Below are positions 1,070 through 37,999 of a stretch of 64,000 bases of DNA, piece after piece. Numbering within the stretch: position 1 is the first letter of the stretch; the number at the start of each line of letters is the position of its first letter. Below the pieces are notes generated by a model. That model was not told the origin of the DNA and made no database searches. It saw only the letters and a program-made list of their open reading frames with translations. The position numbers were made by a program, and so were the translations under genes. Origin of the DNA: Microlunatus phosphovorus NM-1 (GTDB lineage: Bacteria; Actinomycetota; Actinomycetes; Propionibacteriales; Propionibacteriaceae). The stretch lies in the NCBI RefSeq assembly GCF_000270245.1, contig NC_015635.1, positions 1,364,001-1,428,000 of the forward strand, in the 5' to 3' direction.

Positions 1070-3898
1070 ATGTCAGCCGCACCACATGAATCAGCCCGTA
1101 CGCCGGTCCGCTCTGCCGACGAGTTGGCCTGGGAGGCCCTGTTGAGTCCCGACACCGGCAGCACCGCCGAGTCGCTGCTCGGGGCTGCCGACCCGAAGGT
1201 CGGTGAGTCGGCCGAGCAGCCGCGTCGCAGAGGCCGGCCCAAGGTCGATCTGCTCGCGGGGCTCAATCCAGCCCAACGGGAGGCCGTGCTGCATGCAGGC
1301 TCGCCGGTGCTCGTGGTGGCCGGCGCCGGCTCGGGCAAGACCAGGGTGCTGACCCGACGGATCGCGTACCTGGTGGGCGAGCGCAAGGTGCATCCCGGCT
1401 CGATCCTGGCGATCACCTTCACCAACAAGGCAGCCGCGGAGATGCGGCACCGGGTGGCCGACCTGATCGGCGGGCGCGCGAAGCTGATGTGGATCTCGAC
1501 CTTCCACTCTGCCTGCGTCCGCATCCTGCGCAGCGACATCAACCGGTTCGGGCTGTCCCGCACCTTTTCCATCTACGACGACGCGGATTCCAAGCGGCTG
1601 ATGCAGTTGGTGCTGAACGATCTGGGGCTGGACCCGAAGAAGTATCCGACCCGTGCCCTGCTCAGCTGGGTGTCGAATCAGAAGAACGAGCTGATCGACC
1701 ACGAGACGGCGGCCTCACTGGCGACCTCGGAGCAGGATCGCAACAACGCCGCGGCGTACGCGGAGTATCAGCGGCGGCTGGCGGCGGCCAACGCCCTCGA
1801 CTTCGACGACATCATCATGACCACCGTGCACCTGCTGCAAGCCTTCCCGGAGCTGCGCGAGCAGTATCGCCGCCGGTTCCGGCATGTGCTGGTCGACGAG
1901 TATCAAGACACCAACCATGCGCAGTATGTGCTGATCCGCGAGCTGTGCTCCACCGAGCTCTCCGACGCCGCAGGACACGCGGGGGAGACAGAACGCGACG
2001 GGGAGCTGGGGCGCGACAGCGAGCATGACGTCGAGCCGCCGGAGCTGATGGTGGTCGGCGACTCCGACCAGTCGATCTATGCCTTCCGCGGCGCCACCAT
2101 CCGCAACATCCTCGACTTCGAGTCCGACTTCCCCGGCGCCCGGACCATCCTGCTGGAGCAGAACTACCGCTCCACCCAGACCATCCTGAACGCGGCCAAC
2201 GCGGTGATCGTGCAGAACGAGAACCGCAAGCCCAAACGGTTGTGGTCCGAGGCCGGCGACGGCCCGCTGATCACCGGATATGTGGCCGACAGTGAGCACG
2301 ACGAGGCGCAGTTCGTGGCCCGCGAGATCGACAAGCTTCGTGACGAGAAGCAGCTCACCTACGGTGACGTGGCCGTCTTCTATCGCACCAACGCGCAGTC
2401 ACGTGCCTTCGAGGAGGTGTTCATCCGGGTCGGCATGCCCTACAAGGTGGTCGGCGGGGTGCGCTTCTACGAGCGGCGCGAGATCCGCGACGCTATCGCC
2501 TATCTGCGGGCGATCGCCAACCGAGCCGATGACGTGTCGCTGCGCCGGATCCTCAACGTGCCCAAGCGGGGGATCGGCGACAAGGCCGAGGGGGCGGTCG
2601 CCGACCTGGCCGCGCGCGAACGGATCAGCTTCGGCGATGCGCTGCGCAGAGTCGACGAGATCGACGGGCTGGCCACTCGCTCGGCTCGGCTGCTCACCGA
2701 TTTCGCCGCCTTCATGGACGCTCATGAGGCGATGGTGACGAACGGTGTGCCGGCCGACCAGATCCTGCTCAGTGTGCTGGAGAAGTCCGGCTACTTGGCT
2801 GAGCTGTCGGGTTCGGAGGATCCGCAGGACGAGACTCGGCTGGAGAACCTGCAGGAGCTGATCGGGGTGGCTCGCGAGTTCGTCGCCGAGGCGACGCCGG
2901 TCGCCCCGGGTGACTTCGAGTTGACCGCCGAGGACCTCGCTGGACTGACCGCCGAGGAACTGGCCGAGCTCGCGCTGCTGACCGGAGTGGATCCGCAGAC
3001 CGGTGAGCTGGCAACTGCCGCGACCATGCCGGCTGCGTCGGATCCGGGCGAGTCCGCTTCGGAAGGATCGGATCCGGATGGCGAGCCGGAGGACGGCTCG
3101 CTCAGTCTGGCCGCCGGGGCGCCCGAGCCGGATCCCTCACTGGGCGCTTTCCTCGAACGAGTGGCGCTGGTGGCCGATTCCGATCAGATCCCGGACACCA
3201 ATGAGTCGGCCGGCGTGGTGACCCTGATGACCTTGCACACCGCCAAGGGCCTGGAGTTCGACACCGTCTTCCTGACCGGACTGGAGGATGCGGTATTCCC
3301 CCACCAGCGGTCATTGCAGGCCGTCGGCGACGAAGACCGGGCTGAGTCGTCCAGCCGGGTGGCCGCGTACGGACGGGCCGGGGGAGCGGGCTCGAAGCGC
3401 CGGGACTCCAAGGAGCTGGAGGAGGAACGGCGGTTGGCGTACGTGGGGATCACCCGGGCCCAACAGCGGCTCTATCTGACCCGGGCGGTCGTCCGGACCG
3501 TGTGGGGTACGCCGCAGCACAACCCACCGAGTCGATTCCTGAACGAGATCCCGGAGCGGCTGATCGACTGGCGCCGGCTGCAGTCGGCGACCACGAGCTG
3601 GCGGAACACGTCGGCCACCAGCCGTAGTCAGACGACGTGGCGGGCCAGGCCGGGCGCGGGTTCGTACGGCGGGTCGGGCGGCGCGGACGGTGGCTCGCCG
3701 GCCTTCGGCTCCGGGCGGCGGACCGCCAAGGAGGTGCCCGTCCTCGCAGCTGGAGACAAGGTGTTGCACACCCGCTTCGGGCTGGGGAAGGTGATCGCCA
3801 CCTCCGGCTCGGTCGAGGACCCTCGCGCCGACGTCGACTTCGGCTCGCACGGCATCAAACGCCTCGCCGTCCGCCACGCCCCGATCGAGAAGTTGTAG
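1070..3898 (+). CDS. pcrA: ATP-dependent DNA helicase PcrA/UvrD (superfamily 1A)
   Basis: The 942-residue protein is a 3'-5' DNA helicase of the UvrD/PcrA/Rep family, acting in nucleotide excision repair and replication restart. An N-terminal extension of about 60 residues precedes the Q motif (LNPAQREAV, about 65-73). Walker A is GAGSGKT (85-91), followed by TFTNKAAAEM; motif II is VDEYQDT (275-281), followed by GDSDQSIYAFRGA, QNYRST, TAKGLEFDTV and AYVGITRA. A C-terminal tudor-like domain (VLHTRFGLGKV) ends the protein, as in PcrA. Two acidic low-complexity inserts interrupt conserved regions, one just after the DEYQDT motif and one around residues 645-690. The gene is convergent with the first M23 gene, with a structured repeat between them. 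Confidence 0.96.
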   Translation: MSAAPHESARTPVRSADELAWEALLSPDTGSTAESLLGAADPKVGESAEQPRRRGRPKVDLLAGLNPAQREAVLHAGSPVLVVAGAGSGKTRVLTRRIAYLVGERKVHPGSILAITFTNKAAAEMRHRVADLIGGRAKLMWISTFHSACVRILRSDINRFGLSRTFSIYDDADSKRLMQLVLNDLGLDPKKYPTRALLSWVSNQKNELIDHETAASLATSEQDRNNAAAYAEYQRRLAAANALDFDDIIMTTVHLLQAFPELREQYRRRFRHVLVDEYQDTNHAQYVLIRELCSTELSDAAGHAGETERDGELGRDSEHDVEPPELMVVGDSDQSIYAFRGATIRNILDFESDFPGARTILLEQNYRSTQTILNAANAVIVQNENRKPKRLWSEAGDGPLITGYVADSEHDEAQFVAREIDKLRDEKQLTYGDVAVFYRTNAQSRAFEEVFIRVGMPYKVVGGVRFYERREIRDAIAYLRAIANRADDVSLRRILNVPKRGIGDKAEGAVADLAARERISFGDALRRVDEIDGLATRSARLLTDFAAFMDAHEAMVTNGVPADQILLSVLEKSGYLAELSGSEDPQDETRLENLQELIGVAREFVAEATPVAPGDFELTAEDLAGLTAEELAELALLTGVDPQTGELATAATMPAASDPGESASEGSDPDGEPEDGSLSLAAGAPEPDPSLGAFLERVALVADSDQIPDTNESAGVVTLMTLHTAKGLEFDTVFLTGLEDAVFPHQRSLQAVGDEDRAESSSRVAAYGRAGGAGSKRRDSKELEEERRLAYVGITRAQQRLYLTRAVVRTVWGTPQHNPPSRFLNEIPERLIDWRRLQSATTSWRNTSATSRSQTTWRARPGAGSYGGSGGADGGSPAFGSGRRTAKEVPVLAAGDKVLHTRFGLGKVIATSGSVEDPRADVDFGSHGIKRLAVRHAPIEKL

Positions 3899-3908
3899 GG
3901 AGCAATCG

Positions 3909-4066
3909 GCGCGCAGCGGAGTAGCGAGTGACGACTCCCGTCGCGAGCGGCCGTGAGCGTAGCGCGGCTCTGCCTGGACTGAGGAGTCGAGCAGACATGT
4001 TCTTCCGTCTGCGAGCGACGAGGGAAGGCAGAGTCTGGAGCGCGGAGCGAACAGCGAGTGACGACT
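3909..4066. repeat. structured repeat element, copy 1
   Basis: This fills the gap between convergent pcrA and the M23 gene. Identical 14-mers AGCGAGTGACGACT bound it at 3923-3936 and 4053-4066. Inside are nested inverted repeats: outer arms CTCTGCCT (3968-3975) and AGGCAGAG (4026-4033), inner arms GCAGAC (3991-3996) and GTCTGC (4007-4012) around a GTTCTT-containing loop. A second copy lies at 24.33-24.47 kb with compensatory changes in the stems. The right boundary repeat supplies the stop codon of the M23 gene. Function is unknown; a folded RNA, a bidirectional terminator or a small non-autonomous mobile element are all possible. Confidence 0.75.
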
Positions 4067-4979
4067 AACGCAGCTTGAGGCCGAGCTTGTGCAGCCACGG
4101 CTCGGGGTCGACGGCGGTGTAGACGTCGCCCGGCTCGGCGCCGCGTGGATAGACCTCGAAGTGCAGGTGCGGGCCAAAGGCGCGACCACTCTGGCCGACG
4201 TGGCCGAGGAGCTTGCCGCCGGTGACCTTCTGGCCATCCTGGACCGAGATCGAGGACATGTGCGCGTACAGGGTCTGCGTGCCGTCGGCGTGCTTGAGCA
4301 CCACGTAGCTGCCGGCCCAGCCGCCTGCTTCGCCACCGGAGCCGGCATGCTCGACCACGCCTGCGGTCGGGGCGTGGATGGCGGTGCCGATCGGCGCGGA
4401 GAAGTCGAGCCCGGTGTGATAGCGCGCCCAGGCTCCCACATCGCCGAACCGTGCGACGAGTGTGTAGGACTTCACGGGCAGCGTGGGAGTGCCCAACGCC
4501 TTCTTGACTGCATCGGCCTTCTTCTTCGCCTTCACCAGCTTCTGTTGCAGCTTCGTGGTGGCCTTCGACTCCCGGGCGAGCAGCGCGGTGCGTGCGTCGT
4601 ACGCGTGCAGGTCGACCTGTGCTGAGTCGGCCGGCTCGGACAGTGCGGTGACATCGAGATCGACGGCCTTGCCGGTGTCGGTCAACGCGGCGCGGAAGTT
4701 GGAACGGCTGATGGTGCTGCTGTCCCGCTCGAACTCCGACGGCTGATCGACGCCCGGTACGACGGTGGTGACGATCGCTGACTGGCTGATGTTGTCGGTC
4801 GTCTGGGCCGAGCTGGTGGAAGAGAGTCCGGCAGTGACACCGAGACCCAGCACCGAGACCGCGAGAGCGGCCAGGCCGGCGTTGAGGGCGCCTGGCACGA
4901 GGCGTACGTACTCGGGCCATCGCCGCTCTGGCGGCGCGGCTCGTCGCGCAACGGCGCGCTGGGACTGCATTCTGGGCAC
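4065..4979 (-). CDS. M23 family metallopeptidase (peptidoglycan endopeptidase), 1
   Basis: The 304-residue protein has a basic N-terminus, one hydrophobic segment (about residues 34-56) that can act as signal or anchor, an alanine/lysine-rich linker with coiled-coil character (about 120-165) and a C-terminal LytM/M23 domain. Zinc ligands are visible in HTGLDF (HxxxD) and HLHFEVYP (HxH). M23 enzymes cut peptide cross-links of cell wall. The start is GTG at 4979 or ATG at 4970 (MQSQRAVARR). The stop codon falls inside the direct repeat of the adjacent repeat element. It is a paralogue of the next gene: both share linker-type N-termini, the sequence RYHTGLDF and the tandem GATAAC-like upstream box. 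Confidence 0.9.
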   Translation of the reverse strand: MPRMQSQRAVARRAAPPERRWPEYVRLVPGALNAGLAALAVSVLGLGVTAGLSSTSSAQTTDNISQSAIVTTVVPGVDQPSEFERDSSTISRSNFRAALTDTGKAVDLDVTALSEPADSAQVDLHAYDARTALLARESKATTKLQQKLVKAKKKADAVKKALGTPTLPVKSYTLVARFGDVGAWARYHTGLDFSAPIGTAIHAPTAGVVEHAGSGGEAGGWAGSYVVLKHADGTQTLYAHMSSISVQDGQKVTGGKLLGHVGQSGRAFGPHLHFEVYPRGAEPGDVYTAVDPEPWLHKLGLKLR

Positions 4980-5406: not shown

Positions 5407-6519
5407 TCAGTTGACGTTGACGCCGATGCTGCGCAGCCAGGGAGAGGGATTGACGGCGCGATAGACGTCACCGTATTTCACGCCGGCCGGATAGAGCTCG
5501 AAGTGCAGGTGTGGCCCGAAGGCACGGCCGGTGCTGCCGACGTAACCGATGACCTGACCGGCCTTGACGGACTGCCCGGCCTGCACCGCCATCGACGACA
5601 TGTGCGAGGACATGGTGGTCAGACCGCCGGCATGCCGGATGGCGACGTGGTTTCCGGACCAGTCGCCGCTATTGCCGACGTAGAGAACCACGCCGTCGGC
5701 GACCGCCTTGATCGGGGTGCCGAAACCCGCCCGGAAGTCGAGTCCGGTGTGATAGCGCGACCACAGTCCATACTGGCCGAAGTGTGCGCCGACCACGGCG
5801 CCGGGCACCGGCGAAGCGCTGCCGCCTCCGGCCGAGACCGTGGGATCGGAGTTCCCGGCGAGCAGGGAGGTGTCGGTGCTGGCGCCCTGCTGATCGGCTT
5901 CGGCGGCGACCCGCTTGCGCACAGCCTCGGCGAGCCGTTGCTGGGCGATCTTGACTGCGGTCTGCCGCGTGGCCTGCTCGGTGGAGGCGAGTTCCTGGCT
6001 GCGTGCCGCGCCGCCGGCATCGCGGGCGGCCTGGCTGAGTTCTTCGGCTGACTTCGCCAGATCCTCGGCGCGCTGCGCGGCCCGCTCCTTGACCACGGCG
6101 GCCTGGAGGTTCGCGCTTCGAGACGTGTTCTCCACCGCTTGTGGGCGCGTGAATGCGGCCAGGCTCTGGTCGGCGGCCGCATTGTCGGCGGACTGGTTGC
6201 CCGGGGCAACCGCAGCCGTGACGGTGCCGGCCACCTGGTCGGTCTGCGCAATGGCGACCGGAGCAGGTGCTGACACAGGCTGGGCGCTGGTGGTCAATGA
6301 CACCGAAGCGGCGACCCCCAGGCCGAGGGCAGAGATGGCGAGAGCTGCGAGACCATGGGACAGCCAACCACGGCGTCCCTCGACCGAGACCTTCCGCGTC
6401 GGCGTACGCCGCTCACGGCACTCGGCCGACTGCGATGCCACCTGGCTGCTCCCATCGTCACGTACCACCGCGAGGGTGGCTGTCCTTGCTCGGCGCCGCC
6501 CACCTTGATGGTGAATCAC
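5407..6519 (-). CDS. M23 family metallopeptidase (peptidoglycan endopeptidase), 2
   Basis: This paralogue of the preceding M23 protein has a hydrophobic signal/anchor near AALAISALGLGVA, a long alanine-rich segment with coiled-coil character (AEDLAKSAEELSQAARDAGG), a short Gly/Ser linker and a C-terminal M23 domain. Zinc ligands are in RYHTGLDFRAG and FGPHLHFELYP. The open frame extends upstream to a TTG at 6600, but that start lies against the tandem GATAAC box at 6581-6597, so it is probably promoter. GTG at 6519 (then IHHQGGRRR) is a more likely start, though its ribosome site is weak. It is probably exported and acts on peptidoglycan. Confidence 0.87.
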   Translation of the reverse strand: MIHHQGGRRRARTATLAVVRDDGSSQVASQSAECRERRTPTRKVSVEGRRGWLSHGLAALAISALGLGVAASVSLTTSAQPVSAPAPVAIAQTDQVAGTVTAAVAPGNQSADNAAADQSLAAFTRPQAVENTSRSANLQAAVVKERAAQRAEDLAKSAEELSQAARDAGGAARSQELASTEQATRQTAVKIAQQRLAEAVRKRVAAEADQQGASTDTSLLAGNSDPTVSAGGGSASPVPGAVVGAHFGQYGLWSRYHTGLDFRAGFGTPIKAVADGVVLYVGNSGDWSGNHVAIRHAGGLTTMSSHMSSMAVQAGQSVKAGQVIGYVGSTGRAFGPHLHFELYPAGVKYGDVYRAVNPSPWLRSIGVNVN

Positions 6520-6580
6520 CAGGGTCGAGTCGTCGCGATTGTCTTTGATACGCCTGACTCGAAGCGGGGGCACAGAAGAA

Positions 6581-6609
6581 GATAACGGACTGATAACCAA
6601 ACCTCAAAC
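6581..6609 (-). promoter_or_regulatory. tandem GATAAC box upstream of M23 gene 2
   Basis: Two exact GATAAC copies (6581-6586 and 6592-6597) stand 11 bp apart and are followed by AAACCTCAAAC at 6599-6609. This matches the arrangement upstream of the first M23 gene, except that the spacing to the AAACCTCAAAC element is 1 bp here and 7 bp there. It argues that one response regulator drives both genes and that the true translation start lies downstream of the box. Confidence 0.55.
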
Positions 6610-13110: not shown

Positions 13111-13213
13111 CACCCGACCCTTTCGGCCGTGAAAAGGTGCCTTGCCTCCTTCTCGATCAGCGATTCCACCTGACAGAGCCAGGAGTCGCCGCTCCTGCGC
13201 TCATCTGTGGCGG

Positions 13214-13369
13214 AGCGAGGTGTACCCCGTGTGCGCCCGGTCGGCGGTCGTTCGTGGCCCGGTGGCGCGAGGTGTACGCCGTGTACGCCCGGTTGACGAT
13301 CGTTCGTGGCCCCGCGGCGCAAGACGTACCCCGTGCACCCGCAACTGGTGGTCGTCGGTGGCCCGGCGG
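13214..13369. repeat. three tandem 52-bp imperfect repeats, locus 1
   Basis: Three consecutive units of exactly 52 bp occupy 13214-13265, 13266-13317 and 13318-13369. Each has the pattern CGCRAGRYGTAC near its start and GTGGCCCSGCGG near its end. The same unit, also 52 bp, occurs at 37914-37965 with partial copies on both sides. Translation of the region gives no recognisable protein in any frame. Confidence 0.7.
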
Positions 13370-13413
13370 CGCCAGCCGGACCGGCGACCGCAGGTCACAC
13401 CACCCCAATCCCC

Positions 13414-22055: not shown

Positions 22056-23791
22056 TCGGCGCGATCACGCTGTCAATGCTGCTGGCTGGGCTGGGTCTGC
22101 TCGGTCTCGGTGGCTGGCTGGCGCGTGGTTCCCGCTGGGCCGGCGTCGGCCAGTTCCTCGCCGGTGCAGCCATGATCGCCGCCGCATTCTCAGCCGGTCG
22201 GCAGACCATGCTGATCCTCGCGGCCGCGCTGCTGGCGGGCTCGGTCGTCCTGTTCCCACGGTGCGAGTCGACCCGGCACACAGCGACGTACCGGTCGCGG
22301 TGGGTCCAGGTGGCGCTGCTTGCGGTGATCGCGACGAGCGGGGTGCTCGCCTGGGTGAAGGGGCCCTCGGCCGTCGTTGCCGCCGGCTGGATCATCCCGG
22401 GTGCGGTGGTGGTGTGGGTCTGGTGGGTGATCGACCGTCGCCCGGGGGCCGACCGACGCACAATGATCTGGGTGGCGGTCGGCCTGGGCATCCTGGCGCT
22501 CGGCTGGGCTGTGGCCGAGATGATCGTGCTCGGCCCGATGGCAAGGGCAGCGGCGATGCTCAGTGTGCTTGCGGTGCCGGCCAGCATGATCATCGCCCGG
22601 TCGCGGCTGGGTGCCGACCCTCGGCGGGTGTTGGTGCACGTCGTGGTTCTGGTAGTGGCAGCGATCGCGTACCTGGCGGCCTTTGCCGGTCTCGGCGCAC
22701 TGGCCGAGCTGACCTCTGGTCCGCCTTCGGTCACGTACACGACCGTGACCGCCATGGCGCTGGCTCTTACCATGCCCTTGCTGGTCCGACGGCTCCGTGC
22801 CGGGCTGACCGTGCTGGTGCTGGGACATCGCGCCAACCCGTGGGCCATGGCATCCGGCATCCTCGACCGCATCGATCGCGGGACCCAGGCTGGCCTGGCG
22901 GTGGTCGCCACGACCGCGAACCTGCCGTACCTACGACTCGAGGTCGACGGGCAGCCCACCGCCGTCGTAGGCGTTCCGGCCGAGCCGGCGGTGGCCATCG
23001 ATCTCGGAGTGGACGGGCACCGGGCGCGGTTGGTGGTCGGGCTTCGAGACGGGGATGACGCGTTGAGTCCCGATGATGGCCGCCTGCTGCAGGCGATCGC
23101 GCCGCTGCTGTCGGAGATGATCCGATCCGAGCTGTTGGCCGTTGACCTGCAGGCCGCGCGGGAGCAGAGCGCGACGGCCCGGGCGGAGGAGCGTCGGCAG
23201 TTGCGGCGTGACCTGCATGACGGGCTCGGACCGCGGTTGTCGAGTCTGGTGTATGCCGTTGATGCCAGCCGCAATCTGGTGCGGGACAACCCCACCGAGG
23301 CGGATCAGGTCTTGCTGGCACTCCGCACTGACATCGTGCGTGCCGTCGAGGAGGTACGTCGGCTCTCGTACGGGATGCGCCCTGCTGCACTCGACGACCT
23401 CGGCCTGGCCGAGGCGCTGCGGCGGCAAGCCGACACACTGATCGGTGCGGCGGACCGCCCGCTCGTGGTGGAGTTCGTCGTCCGAGAGCTGCCGGCTGAG
23501 ATCCCGGCAGCTGTCGAGATCGCGGCCTACCGGATCGGGGTCGAGGCCATCGCCAACGTGGTACGGCACAGCCTTGCCAACCGCGCGACCGTGCTGCTGG
23601 ACGCCGAGGCCGATGGTTTGGTGGTCGAGGTGATCGATGACGGGGATGGGGCGGCGTTCGCGGGGGTGTGGCAGCCCGGCGTCGGGCTGGAGTCGATGCG
23701 GACCCGGGCAGAGGAGCTCGGCGGTTCACTGGTCGCCCGACCAACGGCCGGCGGTGGCCGGGTCCGTGCTGTCCTACCCTGGGGCCGTTGA
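22052..23791 (+). CDS. membrane histidine kinase (HisKA_3/NarX-type)
   Basis: The 579-residue kinase starts with GTG overlapping the regulator stop. About eight transmembrane helices occupy residues 1-250, without a large outer domain, so it may sense a membrane signal. A GAF-like segment follows, then the dimerisation domain EERRQLRRDLHDGLGPRLSSL with phospho-acceptor His near residue 388. The ATPase domain shows the N-box in EAIANVVRHSLANRA and the G-box in VIDDGDG and GVGLESMRTRAEELGG. It phosphorylates the regulator encoded just before it. Confidence 0.92.
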   Translation: MIGAITLSMLLAGLGLLGLGGWLARGSRWAGVGQFLAGAAMIAAAFSAGRQTMLILAAALLAGSVVLFPRCESTRHTATYRSRWVQVALLAVIATSGVLAWVKGPSAVVAAGWIIPGAVVVWVWWVIDRRPGADRRTMIWVAVGLGILALGWAVAEMIVLGPMARAAAMLSVLAVPASMIIARSRLGADPRRVLVHVVVLVVAAIAYLAAFAGLGALAELTSGPPSVTYTTVTAMALALTMPLLVRRLRAGLTVLVLGHRANPWAMASGILDRIDRGTQAGLAVVATTANLPYLRLEVDGQPTAVVGVPAEPAVAIDLGVDGHRARLVVGLRDGDDALSPDDGRLLQAIAPLLSEMIRSELLAVDLQAAREQSATARAEERRQLRRDLHDGLGPRLSSLVYAVDASRNLVRDNPTEADQVLLALRTDIVRAVEEVRRLSYGMRPAALDDLGLAEALRRQADTLIGAADRPLVVEFVVRELPAEIPAAVEIAAYRIGVEAIANVVRHSLANRATVLLDAEADGLVVEVIDDGDGAAFAGVWQPGVGLESMRTRAEELGGSLVARPTAGGGRVRAVLPWGR

Positions 23792-23816
23792 CCCCATCGG
23801 GCCATATCGTCCGCAG

Positions 23817-24278
23817 GTGAGCATTCGACCGCTTCGGTTCGTAGTTCTCGCTGTGCTGTTGGTGCCGCTCTTGGCGGGCGCCTGTGCGGAGGCCGATCGA
23901 GCTTGCCATGGACCTGTGGTCGGTTCAGTCAGCTATTACGGCAGTTCGGTGCCGCCGCCCTATCACGTCGAGTGGACGATCACGCTCGACGGTGACCGTG
24001 GGCGCTTCGAGGTCACCCCCGGCTATGGGGCGTCGCAGCGGTGGTCAGCGGACTTCGTCGCCGATCCGGCACTGGCGACGGCGGCCTGCACCTCGTTGGC
24101 GGCGGCGGATCAGGTGGACGAGCCGCCGCCTGGCTCAGCCGTGGTCACCGCCGAGCTCGCCGGCAGCGACGGCCACACCCTGCGGCGGCGTACCACGGTG
24201 GTCACGAACGGTGACGTGTACGGCGCACTGCGAGCCCTGGTGCCCGCTGCGACCTGGGAACAGGTGTACGGCTCCTAG
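23817..24278 (+). CDS. small lipoprotein, unknown
   Basis: GTG at 23817 (MSIRPLRFVVLAVLLVPLLAGAC) gives a lipoprotein signal with lipobox LAGAC; the cysteine is expected to be lipidated outside the membrane. The mature part of about 130 residues is a small beta-rich domain (YHVEWTITLDGDRGRFEVTPG) with no recognised family. It lies 25 bp after the kinase gene, so it could act as an accessory or output protein of the two-component system. The frame is open upstream inside the kinase gene but is a shadow there. Confidence 0.7.
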   Translation: MSIRPLRFVVLAVLLVPLLAGACAEADRACHGPVVGSVSYYGSSVPPPYHVEWTITLDGDRGRFEVTPGYGASQRWSADFVADPALATAACTSLAAADQVDEPPPGSAVVTAELAGSDGHTLRRRTTVVTNGDVYGALRALVPAATWEQVYGS

Positions 24279-24326
24279 GACGAGTGGAGCCGGGGCCAAT
24301 AGCCCCGTCCCGGGTGATGACCTGTC

Positions 24327-24472
24327 ACAGCGAGTGATGACCCGTCGCGAGCGACCGTGAGGCGGAGCGAGGGCTCCGTCTGGACTGACGAGGGAGCAAG
24401 ACACGTTCTTCGTCTTGCGAGCGAGGAGGGAAGACGGAGTCCTAGGGAGCGCAGCCTCACAGCGAGTGACGA
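24327..24472. repeat. structured repeat element, copy 2
   Basis: This copy matches the element at 3.92-4.07 kb over its full length. It is bounded by AGCGAGTGATGA (24329-24340) and AGCGAGTGACGA (24461-24472), 132 bp apart against 130 bp in copy 1. Outer arms are CTCCGTCT (24374-24381) and AGACGGAG (24432-24439); inner arms are GCAAGAC (24396-24402) and GTCTTGC (24412-24418) around a GTTCTT loop. Two outer base pairs differ from copy 1 and both are compensated, and the inner stem gains one paired position. It lies between two genes that point the same way, so it is not limited to convergent gene ends. Confidence 0.75.
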
Positions 24473-24506
24473 AGACACTGTCAGTGGCGGGTGTCAGGAT
24501 CCTCGT

Positions 24507-24878
24507 ATGATCGATCACTTCGGTATTCAGTGCGCCGACCTCGCGGCCAGCGCCAGCTTCTACGACAGCGTGCTCGGCACGCTCGGCGCCTCCCGGCAGA
24601 TGGACTTCGGGGTGGCGATCGGCTACGGAAAGCCTGGTCACCCGGACTTCTGGATCGGGGAGTTCGACTCCGGTGAGGGGTTCCGGGAGTCTCACCTCGC
24701 CTTCAGCGCACCCGATCGGGCCAGCGTGCGGGCGTTCTTCGAGGCCGCCACCGCGCTCGGCGCGGAGGTGCTGCACGAGCCGCGGCTGTGGCCGGAATAC
24801 CACGACACCTACTACGGCGCGTTCGTCCGCGACCCGGACGGCAACAACGTCGAAGCGGTCTGTCACCTGCCCGAGTGA
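24507..24878 (+). CDS. VOC (glyoxalase/bleomycin resistance) family protein
   Basis: The 123-residue protein has the paired beta-alpha-beta-beta-beta modules of the VOC fold: MIDHFGIQCADLAASASFYDSVLG at the start and YYGAFVRDPDGNNVEAVCH at the end, with metal-ligand candidates His4 and the Glu in NNVEAV. Members include lactoylglutathione lyases and dioxygenase-like enzymes; the substrate cannot be assigned. ATG at 24507 gives the standard N-terminus. It is convergent with the M20 gene. Confidence 0.85.
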   Translation: MIDHFGIQCADLAASASFYDSVLGTLGASRQMDFGVAIGYGKPGHPDFWIGEFDSGEGFRESHLAFSAPDRASVRAFFEAATALGAEVLHEPRLWPEYHDTYYGAFVRDPDGNNVEAVCHLPE

Positions 24879-37881: not shown

Positions 37882-37999
37882 GTCGCGGGTCCCGACCGTA
37901 TGTGGCCCCTGGGCACAAGACGTACACGGGTCGCGCTCGGTTCTCGGTCGTCTGTGGCCCGGCGACGCAAGACGTACGTGGCGCCGGTCGAGCGCTGGC
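37882..37999. repeat. 52-bp tandem repeats, locus 2
   Basis: One full 52-bp unit (37914-37965, CACAAGACGTAC...GTGGCCCGGCGA) is preceded by the end of another (37882-37913) and followed by the start of a third (37966 onward, running into the 3' end of the UDP-glucose dehydrogenase gene). It belongs to the same family as 13214-13369. The repeat sits at the convergent junction of the dehydroquinase and UDP-glucose dehydrogenase genes. Confidence 0.65.

Follow-up and report, generated by a model that had tools for sequence, protein, structure and literature searches.

A family of ~130-nt hairpin-forming intergenic repeats, probably mobile, in Microlunatus phosphovorus and related genomes

Two copies and the family to which they belong

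The stretch of DNA analysed here, referred to as the window, is 64,000 nt long and corresponds to positions 1,364,001-1,428,000 of the single 5,683,123-base contig of Microlunatus phosphovorus NM-1. It contains two copies of a structured element. Copy 1 lies in the 166 nt that separate the UvrD/PcrA helicase gene (pcrA) from a convergent M23 peptidase gene, whose stop codon falls in the 3′ tail of the element, and copy 2 is located between an ORF and a glyoxalase family gene. The features are given below, where R1 is a covariance model built from 42 distinct copies of this genome, R2 is a model of the core trained on the own genus only and A1 is an alignment of own-genome copies.

1070..3898, + strand: UvrD/PcrA helicase gene, ending upstream of copy 1 (ORF; PF00580, PF13361, PF21196)
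3899..3934, + strand: probable remnant of a truncated preceding unit, of which the 3′ end is left (similar in sequence to the same end of other copies)
3937..4064, + strand: copy 1, a complete unit forming one long imperfect hairpin (R1, 132.3 bits, E 9.8e-25, copy in the training set; alignment A1; fold)
3962..4039, + strand: conserved core of copy 1 (R2, 78 bits, E 4.9e-19, in the training set)
4065..4073, + strand: 3′ tail of copy 1, CTAACGCAG (identical tail at another copy, genome position 123530; ORF)
4065..4979, − strand: convergent M23 peptidase gene flanking copy 1 (ORF; PF01551)
23637..24278, + strand: ORF preceding copy 2 (Pfam search without a match at E ≤ 0.001)
24329..24340, + strand: possible remnant of the end of a preceding unit, AGCGAGTGATGA, one mismatch (R1, 10.4 bits, E 3, not significant)
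24341..24472, + strand: copy 2, a complete unit (R1, 150.8 bits, E 1.9e-28, in the training set)
24368..24445, + strand: conserved core of copy 2 (R2, 87 bits, E 1.7e-21, in the training set)
24473..24480, + strand: 3′ tail of copy 2, AGACACTG (comparison of the tails of 49 sites)
24507..24878, + strand: glyoxalase family gene downstream of copy 2 (PF00903; ORF start shortened to the ATG at 24507)

The core of copy 1 is composed of a variable stem, the internal loops CTGGAC..GAG / ..GGGAAG and an apical stem-loop. The remnant upstream of it gave a weak R1 match (3870-3934, 21.1 bits, E 0.021), and the short tails of both copies are less conserved than the unit proper. An earlier note on this DNA had described a twice-occurring element whose outer arms, CTCTGCCT/AGGCAGAG in copy 1 and CTCCGTCT/AGACGGAG in copy 2, differ in two pairs with both partners changed; the sequence confirms this, and the inner stem (GCAGAC/GTCTGC versus GCAAGAC/GTCTTGC) and the GTTCTT loop are present as claimed. 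The nested double stem also stands, but the fold is not confined to those two stems and reaches the unit ends (P1, CGUCGC/GUGACG). The sequence AGCGAGTGACGA is indeed shared by the two copies, but it belongs to the element itself as the 3′ end of each unit and is not a boundary repeat beside it; its upstream occurrences resemble the end of a truncated preceding unit. The observation was thus real and extends further than noted, as the element is far from occurring only twice: searching the 5.68-Mb genome with R1 produced 90 matches at E ≤ 0.01 among the best 150 of 6243 candidates, 85 of them at E ≤ 1.5e-5, and BLAST with copy 1 found at least 73 matches (best 40 of 95 candidates).

Grouping of 81 matches defined 55 sites, of which 39 are single, eight hold two units, six hold three and two hold four, so that direct tandem arrays of 2-4 units are present at 16 of the 55 sites; this count leaves out four short matches (51-67 nt), three of them internal-deletion remnants, and five marginal ones (E 0.005-0.0074). 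The unit begins with CCCGTCGCGAGCG and finishes with CAGCGAGTGACGA (71 copies), and its length is 108-135 nt, with all but three of these copies measuring 126-134 nt. The sequence upstream of single copies is mostly unrelated, and at the junctions of the arrays GACGA is directly followed by CCCCGTCGCGAG or, in some, GACGACAACACA by GCGAGCGG; it is from these two facts that the supposed boundary repeat was recognised as the unit's own 3′ end. The tail that follows the unit is partly conserved, roughly CNAACACAG in a comparison of 49 sites. The 12-mer of this supposed boundary repeat occurs exactly 55 times in the genome, versus twice for the reversed pattern; within the window only, and with up to two mismatches, it shows no enrichment (10 versus 10.62 in shuffles). 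Eighteen of the 55 exact occurrences stand more than 20 nt away from the 81 copies, and several of these outlying 12-mers are internal-deletion products that retain just both unit ends. A second interspersed repeat, roughly GATCGAGCAAGACCGACAAGAYCGAGCAGATC, was seen just upstream of several orphan family ends (L035, L042, L051 and L055; genome positions ~309,080, 1,362,420, 2,316,330 and 3,950,690). Between ~2.81 and 3.99 Mb of the genome there is one short remnant and no full copy among the matches listed, and most of the remaining chromosome has copies.

Flanking sequence was available for 49 of the 55 sites, with genes called by a home-made codon score that gives approximate starts. None of these sites is fully contained in a predicted gene and 40 have no contact with one, with flanks that are 85% coding; eight overlap a gene end by 1-30 nt, and at site 5463760 the 3′ part of a gene covers 117 of 127 nt. 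This predicted gene (5462971-5463886, L064) crosses most of a copy, and the element may encode its last ~39 codons. The upstream gene is on the strand of the element at 34 of the 49 sites (p 0.009; 35 with inclusion of the gene that overlaps site 5463760). The orientations of upstream and downstream genes relative to the element were same/same at 19 sites, same/opposite at 15, opposite/same at eight and opposite/opposite at seven. A convergent downstream gene is found at 22 sites, and in 18 of them its end overlaps the element or lies within 15 nt of it. A given neighbour family is found at two of the 49 sites at most, which led to the rejection of a cognate gene beside the copies. A promoter shared by the 3′ flanks (CTGTCA..TANNNT-like) is not claimed: the pattern was chosen post hoc and fits 6 of the 49 flanks.

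Conserved fold and strand

On the given strand, each unit is predicted to form a single long hairpin, imperfect and interrupted by internal loops rich in G.A. The predicted folding energies of the two window copies on the + strand, -59.7 kcal/mol for copy 1 and -64.3 kcal/mol for copy 2, are only moderately low (z -2.19 and -3.46, equalled by 7 and 1 of 200 shuffles, respectively), and the opposite strand folds in a less remarkable way (z -0.61 and -2.23).

The comparison of copies was more informative. Alignment A1 contains 42 own-genome rows and 26 pairs, with near-duplicates and one truncated copy excluded. Standard pairs occupy 97.0% of its pair cells versus 90.0% after shuffling, two-sided changes affect 13 pairs (6.3 when shuffled) and compensatory cells number 77 versus 22.8, a value that none of 500 shuffles attained, all three comparisons being inflated to some extent by the relatedness of the rows. 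Slid controls were 27-41% paired, a test in which the structure is favoured because it was derived from the same sequences. A genus-wide alignment of the core (A3) combined 15 own rows with 16 rows from six other genomes of the genus. The latter are 16 of 21 candidates, after one chance match, two sequences with long inserts and two repeats of one locus were dropped. Own rows were required to contain CTGGA..GRAAG, a pattern that 16 of 71 copies fail, so the constancy of CTGGA and GRAAG in A3 is partly a matter of choice; CTGGA and AAG are also invariant in A1, where rows were not chosen by motif. In A3, two-sided changes occurred in 16 of 19 pairs and compensatory cells reached 116 versus 34.0 after shuffling (0 of 500 as high). 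A third alignment, A4, comprises 24 copies from two genomes of a second family (f2; G155 and G195), namely 23 of 24 R2 matches and one further copy, the truncated L221:1256 being left out; in it, 13 of 34 pairs have two-sided changes, a count made without shuffles. Selection on structure, which the earlier note had proposed from the two copies, is supported by the compensatory cells of A1 and A3, and the counts of the second family agree with it. The covariance-model search of the genome and its relatives that the same note had suggested likewise found a family in which pairing is kept across copies.

Two features of the alignments concern the loops and the strand. Within the core, tandem GA faces GA in 39 of 42 rows of A1, 26 of 31 of A3 and 23-24 of 24 of A4. 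In addition, G-U cells outnumber A-C cells, 90:11 in A1, 28:4 in A3 and 32:6 in A4, and the ratios become 29:11, 16:4 and 9:6 when mostly-wobble columns are removed. The excess of G-U over A-C points to an element that acts through one strand, although the slight asymmetry of A4 (9:6) does so only weakly.

Distribution among genomes and gain or loss of copies

With R1, matches were found in 9 of 147 genomes of the own family, all belonging to the own genus (up to 23 best candidates per genome). The core model R2 extended this distribution to 13 of the 20 genomes of the genus, with 2-85 matches each (best 150 candidates), and to 43 of 391 genomes of the order, which belong to three families: 13 in the own genus, 15 in genus g30 of f2, and 13 and two in genera g33 and g36 of a third family (f3). 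Hence 30 of these genomes lie in two families outside that of the genus on which R2 was trained. In a phylum-wide sample only 1 of 396 genomes, the own genome, had the core (R2, E ≤ 1e-4); the large R2 searches used stricter filters and the best 12 candidates per genome, which makes their absences soft.

The copies of f2 in A4 share CTGGAC.GAGGAG and CGAGGGAAG within a covarying outer stem that exists as GGTCAT/ATGACC, GGTCGT/ACGACC or GGTTTT/AAAACC. The outer stem is followed by a small second hairpin and a tail that mostly ends in CACAG. In G155, copies lie between genes read, from their translations and not from a family scan, as argJ, argB, argD and the next gene, and are antisense to them; the 5′ end of the element falls on an ATGACC start, with GGGAGG immediately before. 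At two of the loci of this genome (L176 and L370) the arm of the element appears to provide the next gene with its start codon and with this ribosome-binding-like GGGAGG site, and the hairpin would mask them. In f3, the cores occur as inverted pairs within ~350-nt composites (G273 and G301).

The place of copy 1 was compared among relatives. In a Microlunatus MAG, which is the best named relative by flanking protein (a comparison from which the own genome may be omitted), the stop codons of pcrA and the M23 gene are 8 nt apart, and R2 found no core in the pcrA locus. The pcrA gene was detected in all 20 genomes of the genus. Among the 19 others, the end of pcrA could be read in 11, was not located in seven and coincided with the end of a contig in one. 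In all 11 the 420 nt behind pcrA are free of a core, and nine of them have the M23 neighbour there. The MAG is probably one of these 11, as G149 reads identically. Across all 21 pcrA loci, R2 matched the place of copy 1 in the own genome only, the sole other match, in G074, being on the opposite side of the gene. The earlier note had called for this syntenic comparison, and the absence of copy 1 from 11 of 19 relatives, those with a readable junction, suggests that the copy was probably gained in this lineage; in principle, repeated loss could produce the same pattern.

Differences at matching places were also observed in the other two families. G155 has ~120 bp at argB/argD where G195 has the uninterrupted sequence GTCATGACGGG. 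GTCAT is present on either side of this insertion and at a few other sites, and other copies are without it. In f3, of six matching sites of G273 and G301, one is rearranged and two are distinguished by the presence or absence of an entire hairpin (84 and 164 nt), with 98-99% identity in their flanks. At the 164-nt site a small hairpin persists in G301. The corresponding loci of 11 relatives, drawn from the 145 of 147 genomes with a match, contain no R2 core; by eye, G323 and G305 retain element-like pieces and the others none. These pieces argue against a polarised insertion at this site (L216/L230), which was rejected, and make the loss of the hairpin in G301 likelier, so that precise hairpin loss seems to occur in this genus of f3. 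In one relative (L236), tandem GGGGTMGTCGGGGTCGTCC-like repeats occupy the gap at the f3 site.

Interpretation and comparison with known systems

A family of copies with a common fold, a wobble bias towards one strand, an intergenic location, tandem arrays and presence or absence at matching places is best read as a new, non-autonomous and structure-selected family of ~130-nt repeats. Specifically, we assign a probability of about 0.7 to a mobile, hairpin-forming interspersed repeat of the REP/ERIC/BOX-like kind in which the fold of one strand is selected. Of the three options that the earlier note had left side by side (mobile palindromic element, transcription terminator and folded RNA), the mobile element fits best with the dispersal, the tandem arrays and the absence of copy 1 in relatives, and the folded RNA is the less probable reading. 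One defined strand of the unit folds into a single long hairpin whose stems may vary freely provided that pairing holds, and conservation falls on the internal loops, CTGGA.. (where tandem GA faces GA) and ..GAAG, and less strictly on the 3′ tail. According to the mechanism envisaged, these kept parts would form the site at which a protein recognises and binds the folded strand. The bound form would most likely be single-stranded DNA, which is favoured because the behaviour of the units is that of hairpins able to move or be excised, and because both orientations occur. The binding protein would insert copies beside gene ends, tandem arrays could then enlarge through recombination or replication slippage, and hairpins could disappear by precise deletion. 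A much bolder extension, which is offered tentatively and is more doubtful than probable, is that of a new order-wide mobility system: a non-RAYT protein would recognise the single-stranded hairpin by its ladder of tandem G.A mismatches and the ..CACAG tail and would place copies beside stop or start codons, with the G.A-ladder core persisting in at least three families.

Several candidate carriers or movers were discarded, and neither a transposase nor a product of excision nor a fresh insertion was seen. RAYT is rejected as the mover in the genus, given that no PF01797 (Y1_Tnp profile) match was found in its 20 genomes and that the same profile was found in 5 of 14 control genomes. A reverse transcriptase (PF00078) occurs in 12 of the 20 genomes but does not track the element, being present in the element-free G120, G107, G059, G147 and G125 and absent from the element-bearing G041, G135, G144, G148, G140 and G150. 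As for carriage by plasmids or phages, plasmid and phage records gave no match to the window unit; a copy from f2 had two partial plasmid matches of marginal significance (E 0.01), and of 19 viral contigs that fit a loose pattern only L358 matches the model at E ≤ 0.01, the others being taken as chance.

The orientation bias towards the upstream gene makes RNA a serious rival to single-stranded DNA. The copies would then be transcribed 3′-UTR or intercistronic elements in which the hairpin protects or processes mRNA ends, or binds an RNA-binding protein, and their spread would be a by-product. Sharing of the strand of the upstream gene, proximity of the 3′ end to convergent gene ends and retention of G-U pairs with rarer A-C pairs are all compatible with this reading, but the 15 of 49 sites in the opposite orientation, the antisense copies between the genes read as arg and the mostly unrelated neighbours are not easily accommodated by it, and we consider it unlikely, if deserving of real weight. 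A lower probability is given to the copies being defective end fragments (MITEs) of an ordinary insertion sequence still residing in these genomes. The partly conserved 3′ tail and the inverted core pairs of the ~350-nt composites would fit such an origin; against it, no insertion sequence with these ends was seen among the flanking loci, which were the loci inspected, and the window unit is without a plasmid or phage match. As regards terminal inverted repeats, the unit ends pair as P1.

Strong hairpins at gene ends, including 15 of 49 sites between convergent genes, could also be intrinsic transcription terminators that are alike through composition and descent. Termination, however, does not need conserved internal loops, which the element keeps. 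No terminator-like site with a T run was detected at 3700-4300 or 24100-24700, eight of the 49 sites lie between divergent genes and just 13 of the 20 genus genomes have the element, all of which makes terminators a very improbable explanation. Even less credit is given to a cis-regulatory RNA, such as a riboswitch or a leader, serving a set of genes: its conserved loops and covarying stems would be expected, and several G155 copies adjoin apparent start codons of their neighbours, but these neighbours are diverse, copies occur at convergent gene ends and no Rfam family corresponds to the element. Covariation of a defined fold is a trait shared with the structured RNAs of Rfam; in the window and 11 element-bearing loci no family reached its gathering score, and around copy 1 there was no match at E ≤ 1.

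If the family is regarded as a mobile repeat, the nearest in kind are ERIC, BOX and RUP. BOX repeats are modular, whereas in the present family the entire unit repeats. The pneumococcal BOX, RUP and SPRITE are presented in PMC3049150 as structured interspersed repeats that are patchy among related species and thought to be parasitic. The present family resembles them. For RUP, an IS630 mover and a TA target have been proposed (PMC2229807, in part), and no such mover or target was found here. The 127-bp ERIC/IRU/RU-1 is similar in length and is also a small mobile intergenic repeat with an unproven mover (PMC2229807, in part). It was described from enterobacteria and is compared with the present family by description; the conserved tandem G.A loops with compensatory stems are a feature of the present family.

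REP, BIME and REPIN repeats, which are mobilised by RAYT (TnpA-REP), are high-copy intergenic palindromes located mostly downstream of genes and often in inverted pairs (PMC3733652; on the same subject, PMC3116915 and PMC8266576). Many intergenic, non-coding palindromic copies are likewise found here. The differences are that the present unit is ~130 nt instead of the 20-40 nt of REP, that complete units form direct tandem arrays, that RAYT is missing from the genus genomes and that no conserved unpaired GTAG/CGTC foot exists across the three families: CGTC is paired within P1 in the own genome, f2 copies begin GGTC.. or GGTT.. and f3 copies carry CTCGGCGCCC... The main text of PMC3733652 does not mention Actinobact-, Microlunatus, Nocardioides or Kribbella, and among the papers listed by literature searches no title or abstract describes such a repeat for these genera, a weak negative because several lists were capped.

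How short, gene-less bacterial repeats spread outside the RAYT/REP system is an open question for which this family provides a test case. It is compact, strongly covarying and lineage-restricted, its genus is devoid of RAYT and relatives show identifiable empty places; these properties allow a direct search for the structure that is recognised, for the target and for the mover. The covariance model, moreover, offers a quick annotation that would clarify the intergenic sequence of these genomes.

Other repeated sequences were noticed in the window. Positions 4354-4459 and 5687-5792 are 71% identical and lie within the neighbouring minus-strand ORFs 4065-4979 (the M23 peptidase) and 5407-6600, the second of which resembles, as judged by eye, a paralogue of the first. 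A diverged ~52-bp tandem repeat (CGTTCGTGGCCCGGTGGCGCGAGGTGTAC..) occupies positions 13197-13381, and a related copy is found 24 kb off, at 37897-37977.
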